Below, in pieces: positions 41,813-59,902 of a stretch of DNA of 64,000 nucleotides. Every line of letters starts with the position of its first letter. The first letter of the stretch is position 1. The notes beneath the pieces were generated by a model, which saw only the letters and a program-made list of their open reading frames with translations, made no database searches and was not told the DNA's origin. Origin of the DNA: Flavihumibacter profundi (GTDB lineage: Bacteria > Bacteroidota > Bacteroidia > Chitinophagales > Chitinophagaceae); assembly GCF_020076305.1 (NCBI RefSeq), contig NZ_JAIQXE010000001.1, forward strand, positions 1,860,001 to 1,924,000. Reading direction: 5' to 3'. A program made the position numbers and the translations under genes.

Positions 41813-43816
41813 ATGGAAGCATTTGAATTGACTATTGGCTCATTAACCCTTGTATTATTAAGCCTGATAGCAATACCGTTGTTGCCCATAAAACATAAAG
41901 CAACCGGTGGCCTTATACTTGTCGTATTAATTGCCATTCTTTCTACGATCCCCGCTTCAAAAGCACTTTTCCAAAACAGCACCTATCAATTCAGGTATGA
42001 AACCGGTTACTCACCAGGCAATATTTCAATACGCATCGATTCACTTTCTGCCTGGTTCATACTTATAATCAATATCATTTGCATAAGCGGCGCTTTATAC
42101 GGAAAAGGATACTTAAAAGCCTACCTGGACCAGAAAGCCAATATATCCATCCACTGGATATTATTTGTTGTATTGCAAATGGCAATGCTATGGGTCTGCA
42201 TGGCCCAGCAAGGTTTGGTTTTCCTTATAGCCTGGGAAATCATGTCGTTGTCCGCCCTGTTACTGCTCATGTTTGAACATGAAAAAATTGAAACTTTAAA
42301 CGCGGGAATCAGGTACCTGGTGCAAACGCACCTTGGGGTAATACTGCTTACAACTGGTTTTATATGGCTGTATTCCGCAGAAGGCTCATTCGAATTCAGT
42401 GCGATTGATAAATTCTTCAGGCATCACCCAAACCAATGGCTTTTCCTGCTCTTTTTCCTTGGATTTGGTTTTAAGGCCGGGATTGTCCCCCTGCATACCT
42501 GGCTGCCTTATGCGCACCCTGCCGCACCATCACATATATCCGGAGTAATGTCTGGTATCCTGGTAAAAATGGGTATTTATGGGATTTTAAGAATTACGAC
42601 CTTTCTGCATACAGGTTTTTTTCAAATAGGGACCGGCATCCTCCTTGTTGCCATAATAACCGGACTTTACGGGATCCTGAATGCGGCAATGCACCGTGAC
42701 CTTAAACGAATGCTTGCGTATTGCACTATTGAAAATATTGGCATCATCTTCCTTGGTATGGGTATAGGATTAATTGGAAAAGCAACAGGAAATCTGGTAC
42801 TGGCTTCCATTGGATTTGCCACTGCCTTATTGCACACCCTTAACCATGCCCTGTATAAATCCCTATTGTTTTTTACAGCAGGTAATATTTACCAGCAAAC
42901 ACATACACGCGACATGGAGAAATTGGGAGGGCTGATAAAAAACATGCCTGGATCGGGCCTTATGTTTCTTATTGGCAGTATTGCAATTGCAGGGCTACCG
43001 CCTTTTAATGGTTTCGTTTCTGAATTTCTTTTATATACCGGCATTTTTATTGGCATCAAATCAATTGGTGTACACTATGTAACTATAATGATCACCTCCT
43101 TTGCCAGCCTGGCCCTTATCGGTGGTATCTCTATGCTAACATTTACAAAATCTTTTGGCACTATTTTCCTCGGTAATCCACGAACAGAATTTCACCGGCA
43201 ACCCCGTGAGGTTTCACTGGCCATGTTATTACCCTGCTTCCTTATTATTTGCATAATGCTTTCCATTGGACTCCTGCCGCAATTCTACTTTTCATTGGTC
43301 CAAAATGTCGTTCAGTTATTTGTACCGGTGGTCTCAACGGAAATTAATTTCATTCCTGCCGCCCTGACTTACAGTTTAGCCGCCATTGGAAAATATGCCC
43401 TGCTATTTATATTGCTTTCTATTACCATACTTATTATAAGGAAAATAATTTCCCGCGAAAACACAAAGCCGGCTGTAACAACATGGGCCTGCGGATATCC
43501 GGCCCCCACCCCAAAGATGGAATACACCGGCAAATCTTTCTCAAAGTCACTTGGCAAATTGTTAAACTTCATAGTACCTGAGGGGAAAAAATACAAGGAA
43601 ATTCAAACAGGTGAAATCTTCCCCAAAAAAAGAAAGTATGCTTCACATTACATGGATGTCATTGAAACGAAAATATTTAACAGTATCATCGACAGGATGC
43701 TGTATTCCCTGAATTATTTCAAGTTTATCCAGAATGGAAAAATACAGGCCTATATTTTATACGGCATCTTTTTTATAGTACTGGTTTTTATAGGAACAAT
43801 ATTCAAACTAATCTGA
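41813..43816 (+). CDS. Ehr complex antiporter-like subunit (HyfB/NuoL type), first copy
   Basis: A 667-residue proton-channel-type subunit with about 14-16 helices. It resembles HyfB/HycC of group 4 hydrogenases and NuoL of complex I. The transmembrane glutamate is in FLIAWEIMSLSAL. The lysine helices are GFGFKAGIVPLHTWLPYA and VKMGIYGILR, and a charged core site is LLHTLNHALYKSLLF. The C-terminal part has the HyfB-type segment TWACGYPAPTPKMEYTGKS followed by one last helix. All residues expected for proton translocation are present. It is the first of seven genes on one strand; its TGA overlaps the ATG of the paralogue by one base. Confidence 0.92.
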   Translation: MEAFELTIGSLTLVLLSLIAIPLLPIKHKATGGLILVVLIAILSTIPASKALFQNSTYQFRYETGYSPGNISIRIDSLSAWFILIINIICISGALYGKGYLKAYLDQKANISIHWILFVVLQMAMLWVCMAQQGLVFLIAWEIMSLSALLLLMFEHEKIETLNAGIRYLVQTHLGVILLTTGFIWLYSAEGSFEFSAIDKFFRHHPNQWLFLLFFLGFGFKAGIVPLHTWLPYAHPAAPSHISGVMSGILVKMGIYGILRITTFLHTGFFQIGTGILLVAIITGLYGILNAAMHRDLKRMLAYCTIENIGIIFLGMGIGLIGKATGNLVLASIGFATALLHTLNHALYKSLLFFTAGNIYQQTHTRDMEKLGGLIKNMPGSGLMFLIGSIAIAGLPPFNGFVSEFLLYTGIFIGIKSIGVHYVTIMITSFASLALIGGISMLTFTKSFGTIFLGNPRTEFHRQPREVSLAMLLPCFLIICIMLSIGLLPQFYFSLVQNVVQLFVPVVSTEINFIPAALTYSLAAIGKYALLFILLSITILIIRKIISRENTKPAVTTWACGYPAPTPKMEYTGKSFSKSLGKLLNFIVPEGKKYKEIQTGEIFPKKRKYASHYMDVIETKIFNSIIDRMLYSLNYFKFIQNGKIQAYILYGIFFIVLVFIGTIFKLI

Positions 43817-45843
43817 TGGGCATCCTTTCGGGGTTCATAGTAATTCTCCTTTTAGCGGTCCTGCTGGTTCCATTTATGGAGGTTCAGCGGAAAGGATTAA
43901 TTTCTGTGGCAGCCGTAATCATTTTAGCCATGCTCTCCGGCATTCCGGCTATACGGGCACTTGCCGGGCATGATCTCGAATATATATTTCCGGGATCATT
44001 GGCAACAGGCAGGATTCCAATCAGGATTGATGCCTTATCAGGCTGGTTTATCCTGGTTATCAATTTCACTTTTATAACCGGTGCCATTTACGGCCTGCAG
44101 TATATGAAAGCATACCGCACACAAAAAGCCAGCCTGACCCTTCATTGTATTAGTTATGTATTGGCACACGCAGCATTAATAAGTATATGCGCAATTCAAA
44201 ATTCAGTCATATTCCTGGTCGCATGGGAAATAATGGCATTATCTTCTTTCATATTGGTAACCTTTGAAAGTAAGAAAAACGAAACCCTGAATGCAGGAAT
44301 AAATTTCCTGATACAGTCACATGCCTGCATTATGCTGCTTACAGTGGGCTTTATCTGGGTGGCATCAAAAACAAACTCGTATGACTTTACAGCTTTCACA
44401 TCATTCACCAGATCGAATACACAACTAACAGGACTTGCTTTATTTCTCTGTTTCCTTACCGGCTTTGCTATAAAAGCCGGCTTTGTGCCCTTCCATACCT
44501 GGTTACCCTATGCCCACCCTGCCGCACCCTCACATGTATCTGGTGTAATGTCTGGCGTAATTATTAAAATCGGGATTTATGGCATCCTGCGAATGCTGCT
44601 GCTGATTAAAAATGATTACGTGGTAATTGGCTATATAATTTTATTCCTTTCAATAATTTCCGGCATTTATGGTGTAATGCTGGCCATTATACAGCACAAC
44701 CTGAAAAAACTATTAGCCTACCACAGCATTGAAAACATCGGTATAATAGGAATTGGAATAGGCCTTGGATGTATAGGGATTGGAAAGGGCAATAACCTTT
44801 TAACTTATTTAGGATTTGCAGGGGCTTTACTGCATACACTTAATCATTCCCTATTCAAATCACTGCTATTTTATGGAGCTGGTAACATATACCAGTCAGC
44901 GCACACCGTGGATATAGAAAAACTGGGCGGGTTGGGTAAACAAATGCCGCATACCTCATTGCTGTTTTTATTGGCCTCCTTAGCCATTTGTGGATTACCC
45001 CCTTTCAATGGCTTTGTTTCCGAATTCCTGATTTACAATGGGATGTTCAAGGGATTACAGGGATTTGACAAACCAATGCTCTCATCATTTATTTTCGGCA
45101 TATTCGCACTGGCACTGATTGGAGGGCTGGCCATGTTATGCTTCACAAAAGCATTTGGCACCATATTTTCAGGAAGGCCCCGCCATCATTTTCAACAGGC
45201 TCCGCAAGAGGGCCATTCCTGGAAATTAATTCCCATGTATGCTGTTGTACTGTTGATTTTGTTGATCGGATTGTTTCCCGCAATATTTATAGCGGCTATT
45301 TCAAAACCACTTGAATTATTCACACATATCCAGGATTTAAATAATCACCCGCAAATAGTAAAACTCTCCGGGTCAATATCCATGATAGGAATAAGTGCGG
45401 CATGTTTCCTACTCCTAACCGGATTAATCTTACTAATCAGAAATCGCATATCCAATGCTGCAAAGCAAGAACCAGGCATTACCTGGGGCTGCGGGTATGC
45501 TGGCAATACTCAAAAAATGCAATACACGGCAAGTTCTTTTATCCGCACATACAGGAAACTGGCTGAGCCAATGCTTTCCATACAAAAAAGGAAAACGGAG
45601 CTAACCGGAATATTCCCACAAAAAGGCGCACAGGAAACCAGGCCTTACGATAAACTTGAAGAATGGATAATTGATTACCCTTTACACCAGTTAAAGTTAT
45701 TTTTCAACCGATTTACTTTTTTACAGAACGGGGACATACAGTTTTATATATTGTATGGGATCGCTTTTATCACCCTGGTCTTATTGGTTCCGCTGGCATT
45801 TGATTTCCTGAAAGGATTCATTAATTTTTTAAATACGATTTAA
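43816..45843 (+). CDS. Ehr complex antiporter-like subunit (HyfB/NuoL type), second copy
   Basis: A 675-residue paralogue of the preceding gene with the same architecture. The transmembrane glutamate is VAWEIMALSSF, the lysines are in GFAIKAGFVPFHTWLPYA and IKIGIYGILRM, and the helix 12 region is LLHTLNHSLFKSLLFYGAG. TWGCGYAGNTQKMQYTASS matches the HyfB C-terminal motif. The two copies are clearly a tandem duplication and have since diverged. This copy also keeps the proton-path residues, so the complex may pump through two NuoL-like units plus the HyfF-like one. The next gene starts three bases after its stop. Confidence 0.92.
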   Translation: MGILSGFIVILLLAVLLVPFMEVQRKGLISVAAVIILAMLSGIPAIRALAGHDLEYIFPGSLATGRIPIRIDALSGWFILVINFTFITGAIYGLQYMKAYRTQKASLTLHCISYVLAHAALISICAIQNSVIFLVAWEIMALSSFILVTFESKKNETLNAGINFLIQSHACIMLLTVGFIWVASKTNSYDFTAFTSFTRSNTQLTGLALFLCFLTGFAIKAGFVPFHTWLPYAHPAAPSHVSGVMSGVIIKIGIYGILRMLLLIKNDYVVIGYIILFLSIISGIYGVMLAIIQHNLKKLLAYHSIENIGIIGIGIGLGCIGIGKGNNLLTYLGFAGALLHTLNHSLFKSLLFYGAGNIYQSAHTVDIEKLGGLGKQMPHTSLLFLLASLAICGLPPFNGFVSEFLIYNGMFKGLQGFDKPMLSSFIFGIFALALIGGLAMLCFTKAFGTIFSGRPRHHFQQAPQEGHSWKLIPMYAVVLLILLIGLFPAIFIAAISKPLELFTHIQDLNNHPQIVKLSGSISMIGISAACFLLLTGLILLIRNRISNAAKQEPGITWGCGYAGNTQKMQYTASSFIRTYRKLAEPMLSIQKRKTELTGIFPQKGAQETRPYDKLEEWIIDYPLHQLKLFFNRFTFLQNGDIQFYILYGIAFITLVLLVPLAFDFLKGFINFLNTI

Positions 45844-45846
45844 AAA

Positions 45847-46752
45847 ATGACAAGTTTTATACTGATACTACTCGCAAGCATATTCTTTACAGGAATAGTC
45901 AACCGGGTAAAGAGCATAACATCAGGCCGCAAAGGCCCAGGGATTTTACAGCCTGTAAAAGATGTAATCAGGCTGTTTAAGAAAAAACCGATTTACAGTA
46001 AAACAACCAGTTTTGTCTTCCAGGTAGCACCAGGCATATATTTCGCATCTGTAATTATGGCTATCATGATAATACCACTTGGTGAATTAAAAGGGATCAT
46101 ATCATTTGATGGCGACTTTGTGTTTTTCGCGTACATACTGGGCATTGGGAAATTCTTCAACATCATCGGTGCTTTGGATACAGGCAGCAGTTTTGAAGGA
46201 ATGGGAGCCAGCAGGGAGGCATTATTTTCCATGTTTGCCGAACCAGCATTTTTCATCCTTATGGGGTCATTTGCATTACTTACAAACCATAGCTCATTCC
46301 AGGAAATATTCACTTCCATGCATTTCGGTTCTTCCATTACCTATGTCCTAGGCGTACTTGCAACAATAGTACTGGTCATGATTGCACTGGTAGAAAACAG
46401 CAGGATGCCCTTTGATGACCCCAAAACCCACCTGGAACTAACAATGGTTCATGAAGTAATGGTACTTGATAACAGCGGCTTTGACCTCGGCCTTATTTCA
46501 CTTGCCACAAATTTAAAATTCGCCATGTATGGCGCTTTGATCGCCAATCTTTATATGGGGAATTTCCCACTGTACCTTACAATACCGATTTTCCTTGGTA
46601 TCCAGTTTATGTTTGCAATCAGCGTCGGAATACTGGAATCATTTACAGCCAGGTTCCGGATGAACCGTAACCCTCAATATATACTGGTTCTATCGTCTGT
46701 TTCATTACTGATTTTTTTAGGTGTTTTACTGGTGCTGGGAGAGTTCAGATAA
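45847..46752 (+). CDS. Ehr complex NuoH/HyfC-like membrane subunit
   Basis: A 301-residue subunit with about eight helices, related to NuoH, HyfC and HycD. It should link the peripheral arm to the antiporter arm. Family motifs present are KGPGILQPVKDVIRLFKKKP near the N-terminus, GASREALFSMFAEPAF in the middle, and VENSRMPFDDPKTHLELTMV then HEVMVLDNSG, which carry the conserved acidic residues of the E-channel. It is placed between the two NuoL-like genes and the HyfE-like gene. Confidence 0.93.
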   Translation: MTSFILILLASIFFTGIVNRVKSITSGRKGPGILQPVKDVIRLFKKKPIYSKTTSFVFQVAPGIYFASVIMAIMIIPLGELKGIISFDGDFVFFAYILGIGKFFNIIGALDTGSSFEGMGASREALFSMFAEPAFFILMGSFALLTNHSSFQEIFTSMHFGSSITYVLGVLATIVLVMIALVENSRMPFDDPKTHLELTMVHEVMVLDNSGFDLGLISLATNLKFAMYGALIANLYMGNFPLYLTIPIFLGIQFMFAISVGILESFTARFRMNRNPQYILVLSSVSLLIFLGVLLVLGEFR

Positions 46753-46774
46753 TAATTACCTAATTTAAAATATT

Positions 46775-47404
46775 ATGACAAATGCCTTATTGATCATATT
46801 CACGATAACCCTGTTATACCTGGGCATTGCCCACCGGTTGCTTACTTATATCAAGATCCTTGCATTCCAGGGTATTTTACTATTCGGTATAGCTTTTATT
46901 TCACTTATAGAAATCAATGCCCTGAACCTTGCTTTTGTTTTATTGGAAACCATCATTTTCAAAACTATCGCCATCCCGCTATTCCTTAACTATATTATCC
47001 AGAGAAACAGGATTACAAGAGATGCCGAACCTTACCTGCCCAATTTCATTTCATTGATCATAATTACATTAATAATTATATCCACCTTCCTTTTATCGAA
47101 TGAAATTGCCGATTCCAGGATCAGTAAAATCTATTTCGTGGTTGCACTGTCAACATTATTTGCAGGACTTTATATAATTGTTACCCGGAAAAAGATCATT
47201 ACCCATGTAATGGGTTACCTGGTAATTGAAAACGGGGTATTTATCTTATCCCTGGCCGTTGGCAATGAAATGCCTATGCTGGTGAACCTGGGCATATTAC
47301 TGGACATCTTTGCCAGCGTTTTCATACTGGGCATATTCGTAAACAGGATCGGGGATATCCTGAAGGATGTAGACGTTGATCAGTTAAAAAGCTTAAGGGA
47401 CTAA
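46775..47404 (+). CDS. Ehr complex HyfE-like membrane subunit
   Basis: A 209-residue membrane protein with about seven hydrophobic segments. HyfE proteins combine NuoJ/NuoK-like helices. Features seen here are LLTYIKILAFQGILLFGIAF, LAFVLLETIIFKTIAIPLFL, and the acidic helix GYLVIENGVFILSLA, which matches the NuoK-type buried Glu. The C-terminus ends in a charged segment (RIGDILKDVDVDQLK). The operon position after HyfC-like and before HyfF-like is the classical order. Confidence 0.9.
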   Translation: MTNALLIIFTITLLYLGIAHRLLTYIKILAFQGILLFGIAFISLIEINALNLAFVLLETIIFKTIAIPLFLNYIIQRNRITRDAEPYLPNFISLIIITLIIISTFLLSNEIADSRISKIYFVVALSTLFAGLYIIVTRKKIITHVMGYLVIENGVFILSLAVGNEMPMLVNLGILLDIFASVFILGIFVNRIGDILKDVDVDQLKSLRD

Positions 47405-47421
47405 AATTAATAACACAAAGG

Positions 47422-48849
47422 ATGACGGGAATTTATTTAATTGGCGGATTCAGCTTAAGTGTGTTAATATTCCTGAACAGGAATAAGTTTATAAATTACT
47501 TATTGGTGATTGCTTTCCTGTTTTTACAAATTGGTTTCACGATTTATGAATACCTGCATATCGATGAAACTGAACTGAATTACTTCAGCGCCGATTCACT
47601 GGGAATATTGCTGCTGGCTACCTTAACAATTATCAGCATTCCTGCTATGTACCACAGTTATGTATACCTTGGGAGTAAACAGGATAACCCAAGGCACACA
47701 GCCATATATTTCGGTGCCATGGTAGCATTACTAACAGCGATAAGCGCTGCTTACCTGTCCAACCACATTGCAGTTACCTGGATTTTTGTAGAACTTACCA
47801 CACTAAGCGCTTCCGCCTTAATTTATCACCGCAGGAACAACAGGTCCCTTGAGGGAACCTGGAAATACGTTTTTGTTTGTGCCATCAGCATTACCCTGGT
47901 GTTTATCGGTATTTTATTTTTAAGCTTTACTTTACAGCAGGCAGGGACCGATGACCTCTCGTTTAGTAACCTTTTGAAAAATGCCACCGGGTTAAATGTA
48001 TTCTGGTTAAGACTGGCATTCATATTCATTTTTACCGGGTTTACCGCAAAATTCGGACTGGTTCCGATGTACACGGCAGGAATTGATGCAAAAGACAAGG
48101 CGCCATCACCGGCAGGCGCTTTGATGTCAAGCGTTTTGATGAATGTGGGATTTGTAGGCATTTTTCGTTTTTATACCATCGTTTCACGTACTTCCATTCA
48201 TAGCTGGGCCAATCATGTAATACTGATAGCAGCCATCCTGTCCATTTTCGTAGCTACTGTTTATATGACCAAAATGAAAAATATCAAACGCATGTTTGCT
48301 TACTCCAGTATCGAACATGCCGGTATCGTCATGCTGGGATTGGTAGCAGGTGGGGTTGGGTATTACGCTGCAGTTTTACACATAATAATACATGCCTTTA
48401 TTAAATCAAGCTTATTCTTCCAGCAAGGGCAGATTTACCGCATCTATAAAAGCAAAAGTATTTATGATGTGGGCAATTATTTTAAATACAACCTTACCGG
48501 ATCCGTTGTGATGCTGGTAGCTTTCTTTTTCGCAACGGCCATGCCGCCATCCGGACTATTCATTAGTGAATTCATGATCTTCCGTTCCTTATTCGATGCC
48601 AGCTACCTTTGGTTATTGATTATAGTTATGCTATTACTGACTGTAATCATCTGGGCATTTGCAAAAAATATCTTTAAATTATTGTTTTCTCCCCCGGTTG
48701 GATTTAATGAAGAAGGGATTGAAAGAATTAGTCCGGCTGAATCTTTGTCACAGTTTATTTTACTTGGTTTGTCTGTTTACCTGGGACTAAACCCGCCGCA
48801 GGAATTTGTTACACTAATACAGGAATCCATTAAAAACCTACCACATTAA
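47422..48849 (+). CDS. Ehr complex HyfF/NuoN-like antiporter subunit
   Basis: A 475-residue proton-channel subunit with about 14 helices. The helix 5 glutamate is WIFVELTTLSASALIYH. The helix 7-8 region GFTAKFGLVPMYTAGIDAKD and the extended GALMSSVLMNVGFVGIFRF match HyfF rather than HyfB. A later helix has HIIIHAFIKSSLFFQQGQI. It is the third antiporter-type subunit of the operon. The start of the large subunit gene follows by one base. Confidence 0.92.
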   Translation: MTGIYLIGGFSLSVLIFLNRNKFINYLLVIAFLFLQIGFTIYEYLHIDETELNYFSADSLGILLLATLTIISIPAMYHSYVYLGSKQDNPRHTAIYFGAMVALLTAISAAYLSNHIAVTWIFVELTTLSASALIYHRRNNRSLEGTWKYVFVCAISITLVFIGILFLSFTLQQAGTDDLSFSNLLKNATGLNVFWLRLAFIFIFTGFTAKFGLVPMYTAGIDAKDKAPSPAGALMSSVLMNVGFVGIFRFYTIVSRTSIHSWANHVILIAAILSIFVATVYMTKMKNIKRMFAYSSIEHAGIVMLGLVAGGVGYYAAVLHIIIHAFIKSSLFFQQGQIYRIYKSKSIYDVGNYFKYNLTGSVVMLVAFFFATAMPPSGLFISEFMIFRSLFDASYLWLLIIVMLLLTVIIWAFAKNIFKLLFSPPVGFNEEGIERISPAESLSQFILLGLSVYLGLNPPQEFVTLIQESIKNLPH

Positions 48850-48850
48850 C

Positions 48851-50350
48851 ATGAGCCATATCAGTATCAGTAATAATGAAACCATTCCCCTGTCATCCAT
48901 CCCCGAGCTGGATTACCCGGCATTCCTGGAACAAAATATCCTTTCCCTGAAAAACAGTGCCGGCTCACACTGTGTGAACTATTATGGCATTCCCTGGAAC
49001 GACAATGTCAGGTTAATCTGCTGTATTGCCAATGATGAATTAAGCTCCATCAACATTTCATCAGCTTTGGTGGAAACAGGTAAACCATTTAACACATTCT
49101 CCAAACAGAATCCAGCATTTGAAAAATTTGAACGGGAGATCCACGAAAATTTTGGCATTCAATATACAGACCACCCCTGGTTAAAACCAGTCCGTTACCC
49201 TTTTAACAGGTATAATAAAAACGAAAATATTACTGACTACCCATTTTTTTCAATCGACAGTGAAGAGCTGCATGAAGTTGGTGTTGGACCAATACATGCA
49301 GGCATCATTGAGCCGGGACATTTCCGTTTTATATGCAATGGTGAGCAAATCCTTCATCTCGAAATCCAGTTGGGCTACCAGCACAGGGGAATAGAACAAT
49401 TATTTATAGAAAAGAAGAAATTACTGCAACGCGCTACCCTGGCTGAAAACATAGCAGGTGATTCTGTCGCCGGCCACACAGTCGCTTTTACAAACCTGTG
49501 GGAAAGTATGTGTAATTACCAGCCGGGGAGGGACTTGCAATTATCCAGGACACTGGCTTTGGAACTCGAGCGGATTGCTGTACACACAGGAAATTTAAGC
49601 GCCATGTGTACTGATATAGCTTATCAACTGGGTAGTGCTGTTTATGGCAGGCTGAGGACACCAATCATAAATTTCTTCCAGCGATGGTGCGGTAACCGGC
49701 TGGCAAAAGGATTAATCCGTGCAGGGAAAACCAATTTCCCTCTTACCAATGAACTGGCTGCTGAATTAACAACTTTATTGAATGCATACGAACGGGACTT
49801 TGAAGAAATCTCAGAGGAATTATTCAATTTGCCCAGCGCTTTGGCAAGATTTGAAAAAACCGGGGTCTTAACCAGGGAACAGGCGGAAAATTTAGGCACA
49901 GTAGGTATCTCAGCCCGGATGAGTGCCCTTGAAAGAGATATCCGCTATTCACATCCCCATGATTTATACCGGGAATTAAACCATCAGTTACTGCTAAAAA
50001 ATCATGGTGATGTTCATTCAAGGGCCCGCTTACGGAAAAGGGAGATCGATCAGTCGATAGCCTATATCCGAACGCTTATTCAATCAATTCCAGGTGCCGG
50101 CACCCAAAGCGTTCAATTAGCAAGTCCAAGTCCAAATAGTTTTACCCTCTCCCTTGTTGAAGGCTGGAGAGGGGAAATTTGTCACGCTGCTGTTACCGGG
50201 GAAAACGGGGAACTTATCCATTATAAAATAAAAGATCCTTCCTTTCATAACTGGATGGGATTAGCCCTGGCCGTGAGGAATAATGAAATTTCTGATTTCC
50301 CGATTTGTAATAAAAGTTTTGACCTCTCCTATTGCGGTCATGACCTGTAA
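48851..50350 (+). CDS. ehrL: Ehr complex large subunit (fused NuoC/NuoD-like), without NiFe ligands
   Basis: A 499-residue protein: a NuoC-like part up to about residue 120 and a NuoD/hydrogenase large-subunit part after it (GVGPIHAGIIEPGHFRF, LGYQHRGIEQLF, TLALELERIAVHTGNLSA). In true NiFe hydrogenases the first site is RxCGxC and the C-terminal one is DPCxxC. Here the first reads NIAGDSVAGH (residues 200-209), with Ala202 and Ser205 at the Cys positions. The C-terminal one reads DLSYCG (491-496), with Ser493 and Gly496. No NiFe centre can be bound, as is known for the Ehr group. The C-terminus KSFDLSYCGHDL also resembles the Ehr form. No maturation protease site is needed or seen. Confidence 0.93.
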   Translation: MSHISISNNETIPLSSIPELDYPAFLEQNILSLKNSAGSHCVNYYGIPWNDNVRLICCIANDELSSINISSALVETGKPFNTFSKQNPAFEKFEREIHENFGIQYTDHPWLKPVRYPFNRYNKNENITDYPFFSIDSEELHEVGVGPIHAGIIEPGHFRFICNGEQILHLEIQLGYQHRGIEQLFIEKKKLLQRATLAENIAGDSVAGHTVAFTNLWESMCNYQPGRDLQLSRTLALELERIAVHTGNLSAMCTDIAYQLGSAVYGRLRTPIINFFQRWCGNRLAKGLIRAGKTNFPLTNELAAELTTLLNAYERDFEEISEELFNLPSALARFEKTGVLTREQAENLGTVGISARMSALERDIRYSHPHDLYRELNHQLLLKNHGDVHSRARLRKREIDQSIAYIRTLIQSIPGAGTQSVQLASPSPNSFTLSLVEGWRGEICHAAVTGENGELIHYKIKDPSFHNWMGLALAVRNNEISDFPICNKSFDLSYCGHDL

Positions 50351-50369
50351 CTAAAAATGAGGAATTAAC

Positions 50370-51122
50370 ATGTTAGATAACCTGAAAATACTTTTTCACC
50401 AGGGTAAACAATACATCCCGGATATTACCACCGCGGAATTACCCGGCATATTCAGGGGCAGGCCGGAAATCAGCACAGAAAAAGTCAATGAAGCTGAATT
50501 AGTGGACATATGCCCTACCAATGCAATAACCGCAGGCCCGGTGTGTATTGATTTAGGAAAATGTACTTTTTGCGGGGAATGTTCATTTTCATTTCCCAAT
50601 AAAATCCAATTTTCCCGTGATTATAAAATCTCGGCCAATGAACGCAGCAAACTGATCATCCGGGAAGGCATCAATGAACCGGTTGAACTGAATCCTGCAG
50701 TAATAAGAAAAGAAATTTCAGACTATTTCAGCGGTTCCCTGAAGTTAAGGCAGGTGTCAGCCGGTGGGGATAATAGTTGTGAAATGGAATTGAATGCCTG
50801 CGGTAATGTGAATTTTGATATGGGCCGTTTCGGGATAGAATTTGTCGCCTCCCCCAGGCATGCCGACGGAATTGTAATAACTGGCCCCATTACCGAAAAT
50901 ATGGCCCAGCCACTGCAAATTTGTTATGATGCTATACCGGAACCCAAAATAATTATCCTGGCCGGTGTTGATGCCATCAGTGGAGGGATATTTGAAGGAA
51001 GCCCTGCATTAAACAGAAGTTTTTTGTCTGCCTATACCATTGACCTGTATGTTCCAGGCAATCCTGTCCACCCACTCACTTTCATTAATGGCGTGCTTGA
51101 ACTGATCAAAAAAAGAAACTGA
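50370..51122 (+). CDS. ehrS: Ehr complex small subunit (NuoB/HyfI-like) with N-terminal one-cluster ferredoxin domain
   Basis: A 250-residue protein of two parts. Residues about 40-85 form half a 2[4Fe-4S] ferredoxin: C48 (in DICPTNAI) and C65, C68, C71 (KCTFCGEC) can hold one cluster, while the usual last Cys is Phe75. Residues about 125-245 are a NuoB/HycG-like domain (FGIEFVASPRHADGIVITGP, VPGNPVHP). The N2-type cluster needs four Cys. By alignment by eye, the positions are Asp134, Cys137, Asp201 (in AGVDAISGG) and Asn231 (in PGNP), so only one remains. The subunit may therefore lack the proximal cluster. The rest of the fold is well conserved. Last gene of the operon. Confidence 0.9.
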   Translation: MLDNLKILFHQGKQYIPDITTAELPGIFRGRPEISTEKVNEAELVDICPTNAITAGPVCIDLGKCTFCGECSFSFPNKIQFSRDYKISANERSKLIIREGINEPVELNPAVIRKEISDYFSGSLKLRQVSAGGDNSCEMELNACGNVNFDMGRFGIEFVASPRHADGIVITGPITENMAQPLQICYDAIPEPKIIILAGVDAISGGIFEGSPALNRSFLSAYTIDLYVPGNPVHPLTFINGVLELIKKRN

Positions 51123-57901: not shown

Positions 57902-59902
57902 ATGACCCATATTTTAAAACAACCGATTCTCTTGCTGGCCGTATTGCTGGGTATCAGCTTTCAGTCCTGCAAGCCCAAAAGCACCACATCAGCCGTTAGC
58001 GGCGATGCAGCTGTAAAAGCCTATGTACCACCTGGCAAATACGACGAATTCTACAATTTCCTCTCAGGTGGATTCAGTGGACAAATGAGTGTGTACGGAT
58101 TGCCCTCCGGCCGGCTTTTCAGGGTTATCCCGGTATTCTCTGTTGACCCGGAAAAAGGCTATGGTTACAGTGAAGAGACAAAACCCATGCTGAATACATC
58201 CCATGGTTTCATTCCCTGGGACGACCTTCACCATACTGAGCTGTCACAAACCAACGGAGAAATTGATGGTCGTTGGATTTTCGGTAACGCGAATAACACG
58301 CCAAGGGTAGCCAGGATTGACCTGACTACATTCCGTACCGCCGAAATCATTGAATTGCCAAACAGTGCAGGAAACCACTCCTCTCCCTTTACTACAGAAA
58401 ATTCAGAATATGTAGTAGCAGGAACCCGTTTTAGCGTACCGGTAGATTATGTTAACGGCGATGTGCCCATTAACACCTATAAGAAGAATTTCAAAGGCAC
58501 GCTCAGCTTTATCAGCGTAAGCAAGGAAGGCGCAATGGATATTGCATTTCAGTTGCTGTTACCCGGTGTAAACTTTGACCTTAGTCATTCCGGGAAAGGC
58601 CCCAGCAGTGGTTGGTTTTTCTTCAGCTGTTACAATAGTGAACAAGCCAATACACTTTTGGAAGTAAACGCTTCACAAAGGGATAAGGACTTTATCCTGG
58701 CAGTTAACTGGAAAAAAGCCGAAGAGTACCTGAAAGCAGGCAAAGGCGTAAAACAAAAAGTACGCTATGCACATAACACCTATGATGAAAATACCCACAG
58801 CGCGAAAAGTGAAATCAGGGAAGAAGTAACTGTACTTGATGCCGTTGCGCTTAAGGATATTTGTTATTTGATCCCTTGTCCGAAGTCGCCGCACGGTTGC
58901 GACGTAGACCCAACCGGTGAATACATTGTTGGTAGTGGAAAACTTGCCGCACTGATTCCTGTTTTCGCTTTCTCAAAACTCCAGAAAGCCATTGCTGATA
59001 AAACTTACGAAGGTGAATATGAAGGTATCCCTGTAATTAAGTATGAAGCCGCATTATACGGTGAAGTTAAGAAACCGGGATTAGGCCCATTGCACACAGA
59101 ATTTGATGGAAAAGGAAATGCCTACACCTCATTCTTTGTGTCATCTGAAATCGTAAAATGGAATATCAAGGATCTTAAGGTACTGGACCGCGCACCTACT
59201 TTCTATTCAATCGGCCACCTTTGCATCCCTGGCGGTGATACAAGAAAACCAAATCCAAAATATGTGATTGGTTATAATAAAATCACCAAAGACCGCTACC
59301 TGCCAACTGGCCCTGAACTATCCCAGAGTGCACAGATCTATGACATCAGCGGCGACAAAATGCAGTTGATCAACGACTTCCCGACAATAGGGGAACCACA
59401 CTACGCACAGGCAGTAGCTGCAGACCTGCTTATGAAAAATTCCAGGAAGATCTATAAGATAGAAGAAAACAAAAATCCTTACGTTTCCAAAGGTGAGAAA
59501 GAAACCAAAGTGGTGCGGGAAGGCAATAAAGTACATGTTTACATGACTGCAATCCGCTCCCACTTCTCTCCTGATAATATTGAAGGCGTTACAATGGGAG
59601 ATGAAGTCTATTTCCATGTTACCAACCTGGAACAGGATTGGGATGTTCCCCATGGATTCGCTGTAAAAGGAGCACCTACTGCAGAATTGCTGATCATGCC
59701 TGGTGAAACCCAGACCCTGAAATGGGTTCCTGAAAAAACCGGTATTTACCCGATATATTGTACCGATTTCTGTAGTGCATTGCACCAGGAAATGCAGGGA
59801 TATGTAAGGGTAAGTCCAAAAGGCTCTAATGTTCCAATAACTTTCAGCCTGGGTACAAACACTGCTGCTCCGGAAGCGACCGATAAAAAAGCTGCTCAAT
59901 AA
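57902..59902 (+). CDS. nosZ: Nitrous oxide reductase, clade II (Sec-dependent lipoprotein type)
   Basis: A 666-residue copper enzyme reducing N2O to N2. The signal is Sec-type with a lipobox (LGISFQSCKPK) instead of the Tat signal of clade I, the mark of clade II. The seven-bladed propeller carries CuZ histidine motifs DLHHTELSQ, GNHSSPF, FDLSHSGKGP, SPHGCDVDPTGEY, GPLHTEFDGKGN, IGHLCIPGGDTRKP and EPHYAQAV. The C-terminal cupredoxin domain has the CuA site CTDFCSALHQEM. All expected ligands are seen. Downstream genes supply copper and assembly factors. Confidence 0.97.
   Translation: MTHILKQPILLLAVLLGISFQSCKPKSTTSAVSGDAAVKAYVPPGKYDEFYNFLSGGFSGQMSVYGLPSGRLFRVIPVFSVDPEKGYGYSEETKPMLNTSHGFIPWDDLHHTELSQTNGEIDGRWIFGNANNTPRVARIDLTTFRTAEIIELPNSAGNHSSPFTTENSEYVVAGTRFSVPVDYVNGDVPINTYKKNFKGTLSFISVSKEGAMDIAFQLLLPGVNFDLSHSGKGPSSGWFFFSCYNSEQANTLLEVNASQRDKDFILAVNWKKAEEYLKAGKGVKQKVRYAHNTYDENTHSAKSEIREEVTVLDAVALKDICYLIPCPKSPHGCDVDPTGEYIVGSGKLAALIPVFAFSKLQKAIADKTYEGEYEGIPVIKYEAALYGEVKKPGLGPLHTEFDGKGNAYTSFFVSSEIVKWNIKDLKVLDRAPTFYSIGHLCIPGGDTRKPNPKYVIGYNKITKDRYLPTGPELSQSAQIYDISGDKMQLINDFPTIGEPHYAQAVAADLLMKNSRKIYKIEENKNPYVSKGEKETKVVREGNKVHVYMTAIRSHFSPDNIEGVTMGDEVYFHVTNLEQDWDVPHGFAVKGAPTAELLIMPGETQTLKWVPEKTGIYPIYCTDFCSALHQEMQGYVRVSPKGSNVPITFSLGTNTAAPEATDKKAAQ

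Follow-up and report, generated by a model that had tools for sequence, protein, structure and literature searches.

The question raised by this locus is how a complex of the complex I/group 4 hydrogenase kind might work when its small subunit lacks ligands for the N2 cluster. The window (the whole stretch of 64,000 nucleotides of Flavihumibacter profundi DNA that was analysed) comes from a host genome of 4.87 Mb in 6 contigs, and carries at 41813-51122 on the forward strand a seven-gene operon (ORF list, Pfam) with the gene set of Ehr, i.e. a complex I/group 4 hydrogenase-like membrane arm together with a large and a small subunit. By alignment the first two genes encode copies of a HyfB/NuoL-like antiporter subunit (41813-43816, with E142, K221, K298, H341, H345 and E404, and 43816-45843); Pfam and alignment then identify a NuoH/HyfC-like subunit with conserved acidic residues (45847-46752) and a HyfE-like subunit (46775-47404), and alignment a HyfF/NuoN-like antiporter subunit which keeps E124, K210, K289, H324 and E383 (47422-48849). 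The large subunit EhrL (48851-50350; Pfam, alignment) is a 30-kDa/49-kDa fusion without NiFe ligands, and the small subunit EhrS (50370-51122, 250 amino acids; PF01058, 68.6 bits) is a ferredoxin domain fused to a NuoB/HycG-like domain. On reading the sequence, the genes directly 3' of the operon appear to be those of DnaE-type and DinB-type polymerases, not redox enzymes, and no NADH module (NuoEFG) was found among the listed ORFs of 28000-58000. Further downstream, a nitrous-oxide-reductase-like protein was read at 57902-59902; its gene follows that of a cytochrome c and has a Crp-type regulator nearby, and the host may reduce N2O. Elsewhere in the same genome (L003, on G000:C4) the small subunit of a group 1-like NiFe hydrogenase, carrying a twin-Arg leader, was read, adjoined by a large subunit and Hyp-type genes. 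For EhrS, the loss of the N2 ligands is well supported, and the functional reading built on it below is put forward conditionally.

The original prediction had placed Asp134, Cys137, Asp201 and Asn231 of EhrS at the four columns of the N2/proximal-cluster ligands. An alignment with full-Cys Ehr small subunits, in which column identity was anchored by profile alignment to MbhJ (6cfw_J) and HycG (7z0s_G), gave exactly these residues on the forward strand: Asp for Cys at D134 with a retained C137 (50769-50780), Asp for Cys at D201 (50970-50972) and Asn for Cys at N231 (51060-51062). C137, the sole remaining old ligand, is absent from 11 of 82 N2-less sequences, so a conventional cluster is unlikely. 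The ligands have not moved to another part of the chain, as the only invariant cysteines in the 88 aligned sequences are C48, C65, C68 and C71 of the ferredoxin domain. Both complex I NuoB copies of the host genome retain their cysteines (SCC, GAC and PGC, by reading), and the loss is therefore no genome-wide artefact. Sequencing error and a pseudogene were ruled out by conservation among relatives and by dN/dS values for EhrS of 0.02-0.11 in 8 of 10 pairs (finite dS; dS was saturated in the other two); the small subunit evolves under purifying selection.

The surrounding fold is retained, as had been claimed. The AlphaFold2 model of EhrS (from 44 sequences) has a mean pLDDT of 91.3, and its best PDB match by E-value is HycG (7z0s_G), with a TM-score of 0.49 and an rmsd of 7.7 across both domains; the NuoB-like part superimposes on MbhJ (6cfw_J) over 128 columns with a TM-score of 0.81 by target length and an rmsd of 1.9 A. 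By homology, D134, D201 and N231 would lie near one another in space.

A scan of genome contigs gave 568 confirmed stretches, and the N2 site was lost in all of the best 80. These 80, the window and 7 of the 16 other Ehr loci from a phylum sample make up the 88 aligned small subunits, among which (the relatives being the best 80 of 568) the exact D-C-D-N pattern occurs in 70, other N2-less forms in 12 and the four-Cys form in 6; chance is excluded by an N2-less state in 82 of 88. Two of the 80 loci (L093 and L117) have one in-frame stop each in the extracted stretch. The phylum sample of 395 genomes contained 17 Ehr, of which the window and L036 are N2-less, and the remaining 9 Ehr loci of that sample are four-Cys. 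Since such a scan is biased towards close relatives, the small subunit was also searched against samples of whole genomes at a threshold of E <= 1e-45. In the window's class, Bacteroidia, the gene was present in 16 of 395 genomes including the window's own, and 15 of the 16 are N2-less; in the class of genome G047 it was present in 44 of 294 genomes, with 40 four-Cys, 3 N2-less and one partial sequence (L242, in which the third ligand column is missing and which was left unscored). The original prediction had allowed that the loss might be shared by most Ehr small subunits together with a described redox function; it is near-fixed in the sampled Bacteroidia but is not Ehr-wide. One four-Cys EhrS-like gene in Bacteroidia (L244:7214-7966, genome G583) has no other recognised Ehr subunit within the surrounding 18.5 kb.

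The window's genus, family and order were represented by 38 further genomes, none with a comparable EhrS match; 27 of them gave matches of 29-38% identity, mostly across the NuoB-like part, one of which (L006) was inspected. Chitinophagaceae MAGs are among the nearest named relatives of the EhrS gene, and one N2-less locus (L139) is labelled Planctomycetota. Outside Bacteroidota the search covered plasmid records, and 12 of 246 matching records were fetched. The 14 scorable plasmid and tandem-paralogue sequences (L180, whose reading frame was not recovered, was unscored) comprised 11 four-Cys, one Streptomyces R-C-C-C and two N2-less sequences, the latter on plasmids of Mycobacterium branderi (N-D-D-A at the ligand columns) and Allomeiothermus silvanus (T-D-E-S), each of which retains the ferredoxin cluster. 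In a scan of viral contigs, 87 pattern stretches contained no relative of EhrS. Tandem operons were seen at L139:898-10777 and L140:1266-10759, where a four-Cys, ferredoxin-free Ehr lies directly upstream of an N2-less Ehr, and two four-Cys Ehr operons stand side by side on a Variovorax plasmid (L174:4466-22346).

The history of the loss was approached with a quick tree of the S, L, F and H subunits of 72 operons, with the ligand columns removed; it includes 53 of the 80 scan loci and leaves out L244, by choice, and any locus with a missing or short copy of S, L, F or H. A clade with an SH-aLRT of 100 unites 57 N2-less operons with a single four-Cys operon (L149), while the other 14 four-Cys operons fall outside. 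L149 was placed beside another long branch inside the clade, long branches being flagged by the tree tool, and a single N2-less group was not rejected (p-AU 0.112). The simplest reading is one loss within Bacteroidota. The losses on the M. branderi and A. silvanus plasmids are probably separate, to judge from their different residues and identities of 30-31%; a small-subunit-only tree that included the plasmid sequences had few supported branches and several very long rows, and leaves their independence unsettled. Three loci (L130, L133 and L136) are N2-less yet carry both ferredoxin clusters.

Exactly two acids are distributed across the four old ligand positions in 99 of 100 N2-less rows (96 distinct), and three acids in the remaining one. 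This two-acid pattern is mostly shared descent: apart from one origin, which supplies most of the rows, four cases are informative, namely L143 (A-D-D-N) and L136 (D-D-H-S), in which an acid has moved with the number kept, and the M. branderi and A. silvanus plasmids. An oxidised [4Fe-4S](Cys)4 cluster has a net charge of -2, and the acid pair may be an electrostatic replacement of the cluster and a possible proton or cation site. When small-subunit columns were filtered for an identical residue in 85% of N2-less rows and a different one in 70% of the 6 four-Cys rows, the three replaced ligands were the only columns to separate the groups; a different filter applied to 15 four-Cys rows added H10, R31, N90, S136 and L245.

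A single ferredoxin cluster at the N-terminus had been predicted, and its cysteines are present in all 88 aligned sequences as well as in all 60 rows of the whole-genome survey, window included. The ligands C48, C65, C68 and C71 (50511-50582, forward strand; alignment) are the fourth Cys of motif 1 and the first three of motif 2 of a ferredoxin-type 4Fe-4S domain; by complex I assignments we take the retained cluster to be of the N6b type.

The partner subunit was correctly described as lacking NiFe ligands: EhrL of the window has no Cys at the four positions, and across the alignment these columns hold A/S/T, S/T, S and G with few exceptions, one Cys at one position being found in 2 of 83 large subunits (L138 and L070). 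Most of the polar pocket of EhrL, the former seat of NiFe or quinone, is conserved. Each of twelve residues (H149, E154, H157, E199, D204, H209, H245, R440, E442, S493, Y494 and D498) is present in at least 68 of 70 N2-less rows and at least 12 of 13 four-Cys rows, and two of the 70 rows (L139 and L140) are paralogues which account for the exceptions at 204, 442 and 444. The N2 ligands were thus lost without visible relaxation of the pocket. The Tyr of NuoCD at what is presumably the quinone-site column is absent from EhrL in the alignment.

The membrane arm is likewise kept. Alignment with the E. coli Nuo and Hyf subunits showed the Glu/Lys ion path of the antiporter-like subunits to be present, and the antiporter His residues and the NuoH acidic residues are also conserved; one row, HycC, was out of frame and was disregarded. 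At N2-less loci (the counts include a few rows of tandem neighbour operons) E142, K221 and K298 of the L subunits occur in 90 of 90 rows and E404 in 88 of 90; E124, K210 and E383 of the F subunit occur in 63 of 63 and K289 in 62 of 63; and E132 of the H subunit is found in 57 of 57. Two histidines of the F subunit, H78 and H136, are present in 54 and 55 of 57 N2-less operons respectively and separate these from L149 and the other four-Cys operons. In the 46 contexts that extend 9.5 kb or more upstream, two L genes were counted in 31, one in 11 and some other arrangement in 4.

Taken together, these data are best read, with a probability of roughly 0.55, as an Ehr variant that exchanges ions in the manner of Mrp, independently of redox chemistry or at most gated by it, and in which the electron wire stops before the coupling site. 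The complex probably moves ions without the usual electron delivery, and a gated or conformational ion pump would fit the conserved pump and pocket. If no N2 cluster is assembled, electrons would not reach the pocket by the usual route, and the exchanger could be powered by ion gradients or by a ligand or proton that binds in the pocket. The acid pair would give the old cluster site the net charge of the oxidised cluster and might serve as a switch that binds protons or cations at the point from which complex I triggers pumping, while the remaining ferredoxin cluster would be structural or a sensor. The strongest argument for this redox-free exchanger is that the pocket shows no visible relaxation after the loss of N2, as would be expected had N2 supplied a substrate there. 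A bolder version is tentative: the complex may be a natural redox-free complex I in which an acid pair of equal charge has taken the place of N2, probably on more than one occasion, and serves as a proton/cation switch, with the pocket and the long-range coupling elements driving or gating the antiporters without electrons; the chemistry of the pocket might then be redox-independent even in four-Cys Ehr.

The main rival to the redox-free reading is a new metal site, which is considered unlikely. D134, D201 and N231, with C137 or with C253 and C444 of EhrL, would hold a mononuclear metal or an unusual cluster fed by the ferredoxin cluster, and the complex would still be a redox pump. C253 and C444 accompany the N2 loss (57 of 57 N2-less against 0 of 15 four-Cys operons) and could form such a site; three strongly conserved potential ligands would share one pocket, where the two acids could bind a redox metal, and the ferredoxin cluster that would feed it is found in all 88 sequences. 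On the other hand, the N2-less A. silvanus large subunit has Phe at both 253 and 444, C137 is dispensable, L136 retains just one of D134, D201 and N231, and Asp/Asp/Asn are hard ligands of low redox use. Six cysteines of EhrL (C41, C57, C58, C253, C444 and C495) are conserved in the N2-less clade and mostly absent from four-Cys relatives. The plasmid cases also count against a redox-free exchanger in that their pocket is less constant: A. silvanus has Gly at 204 but keeps the remaining pocket and listed pump residues, bar those not common to all relatives, and M. branderi deviates at several pocket and some pump positions. Redox roles have been proposed for other Ehr complexes, for instance with formate dehydrogenase, and are hypotheses only in the portions of those papers that were available (PMC6349859, PMC7894505).

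Somewhat less probable still is a redox-gated pump, in which the one remaining ferredoxin-type cluster would respond to redox or oxygen state and turn the exchanger on or off with no net electron flow. Absolute conservation of this cluster, although its onward partner is lost, goes beyond the needs of a pure antiporter and speaks for such gating, but a structural cluster accounts for the same data. Nor does any partner or regulator gene family recur near N2-less operons: apart from the operon genes, the most frequent neighbour family occurred in at most 5 of the 81 contexts, so that, within contexts that are often short, a recurrent adjacent redox partner was rejected and the lack of such a partner, noted for the window in the original prediction, is supported more widely. 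The trait also occurs in both aerobic and anaerobic lineages, the carriers including Arcticibacter and Chryseolinea, which we take to be aerobic, and Paludibacter and rumen Salinivirgaceae, which we take to be anaerobic.

Coupling to inorganic carbon as in DAB, with CO2 hydration, bicarbonate transport or another non-redox reaction performed by or coupled to the pocket, is very doubtful. DAB complexes have a beta-carbonic-anhydrase-like partner, DabA; the comparison of neighbour families around the N2-less operons, in often short contexts, showed no recurring family. PMF-driven CO2 hydration is known in DAB2, and in Acidithiobacillus caldus a gene for a carbonic anhydrase reportedly adjoins a hyf cluster, according to the available parts of the two papers (PMC13144422, PMC3826726). 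Of 15 four-Cys Ehr loci, 7 have a SulP-type transporter gene within or next to the operon (L149, L157 and L163 by Pfam; L153, L155, L156 and L161 by reading), and one lies beside an N2-less operon (L143), but a similarity search of 81 N2-less contexts, many of them short, gave no further SulP match, and SulP proteins carry other anions too. A carbonic anhydrase adjoining the operon was rejected, since PF00484 genes, which 13 of the 21 host genomes possess, map to different contigs or at distances above 500 kb. The SulP protein of L163, whose gene stands between those of EhrL and EhrS, also has STAS and PTS_EIIA_2 domains. Upstream of many four-Cys Ehr operons stands a regulator with HTH_17 and PTS_EIIA_2 domains (L150:3900-4568, Pfam), with similar ORFs before the first antiporter gene at L151-L159, L161 and L248; it was not found in N2-less contexts by similarity search.

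That the operon is a degenerate, non-functional relic, as loss of both catalytic and relay ligands might suggest, is hardly credible and is contradicted by the selection data (the dN/dS range of 0.02-0.11), by complete operons at dozens of loci and by the conserved pump and pocket residues.

How the arrival of electrons at N2 and quinone becomes pumping is a long-standing question in complex I. A complex with pocket, coupling loops and pump but without N2 would be a natural uncoupling of the two halves, would allow it to be asked whether charge or protonation at the N2 site alone drives or gates ion movement, and bears on the role of Ehr complexes generally.

The loss of NiFe ligands in Ehr was already known, as the original prediction had stated (available passages of PMC10284858, PMC10432482, PMC3569383 and PMC7304191). 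In the literature searched, which included available passages of these four Ehr papers and of PMC6349859 and PMC7894505, no description of missing N2 ligands was found, and an earlier remark elsewhere is possible; the function of Ehr is called unknown in the part of PMC10284858 that was available. The window complex shares with Ehr, as described in these passages, the group 4 hydrogenase-like membrane and peripheral subunits and a large subunit without NiFe cysteines, but there only the NiFe ligands are reported missing, whereas here the N2 ligands are lost as well. The four-Cys N2 site absent from EhrS is kept by many Ehr relatives and, in the same passages, is no part of the definition of Ehr. 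MBS of Pyrococcus furiosus (6u8y; available text of PMC7684303) has in common with the window complex a non-standard ligation of the proximal cluster, a partial loss of NiFe ligands and antiporter modules; it keeps three Cys and a catalytic 4Fe-4S cluster at the proximal site, whereas in the window complex three ligands have given way to other residues and the remaining one is dispensable. E. coli hydrogenase-4 and formate hydrogenlyase (Hyf, Hyc; 7z0s) match in the HyfB, C, E, F, G and I-like gene set, and 7z0s_G is the best small-subunit match in the PDB by E-value, but they keep the NiFe Cys and all four proximal-cluster Cys, which the window complex does not; the four NiFe-ligating Cys of a group 4 [NiFe] hydrogenase are absent from its EhrL.

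With respiratory complex I (NuoB, NuoCD, NuoH and NuoL/M/N), to which Ehr was reportedly compared by Marreiros et al. in 2013, the subunit folds and ion-path residues are shared, but the window operon is without the NADH module, the N2 ligands and the Tyr at the presumed quinone-site column. Mrp Na+/H+ antiporters contain complex I-type antiporter subunits and work without electron transfer, and DAB complexes are not known to have a NuoB/NuoCD/NuoH-like arm. The same use of such subunits without electron transfer is described for DAB2, and Mrp is described as having no NuoB/NuoCD/NuoH-like arm, in the available passages of PMC13144422 and PMC7684303 respectively. The Glu/Lys ion path is common to Mrp and the window complex, but the MrpA-G set without a peripheral arm is not matched, as the window operon has NuoH-, NuoCD- and NuoB-like genes.
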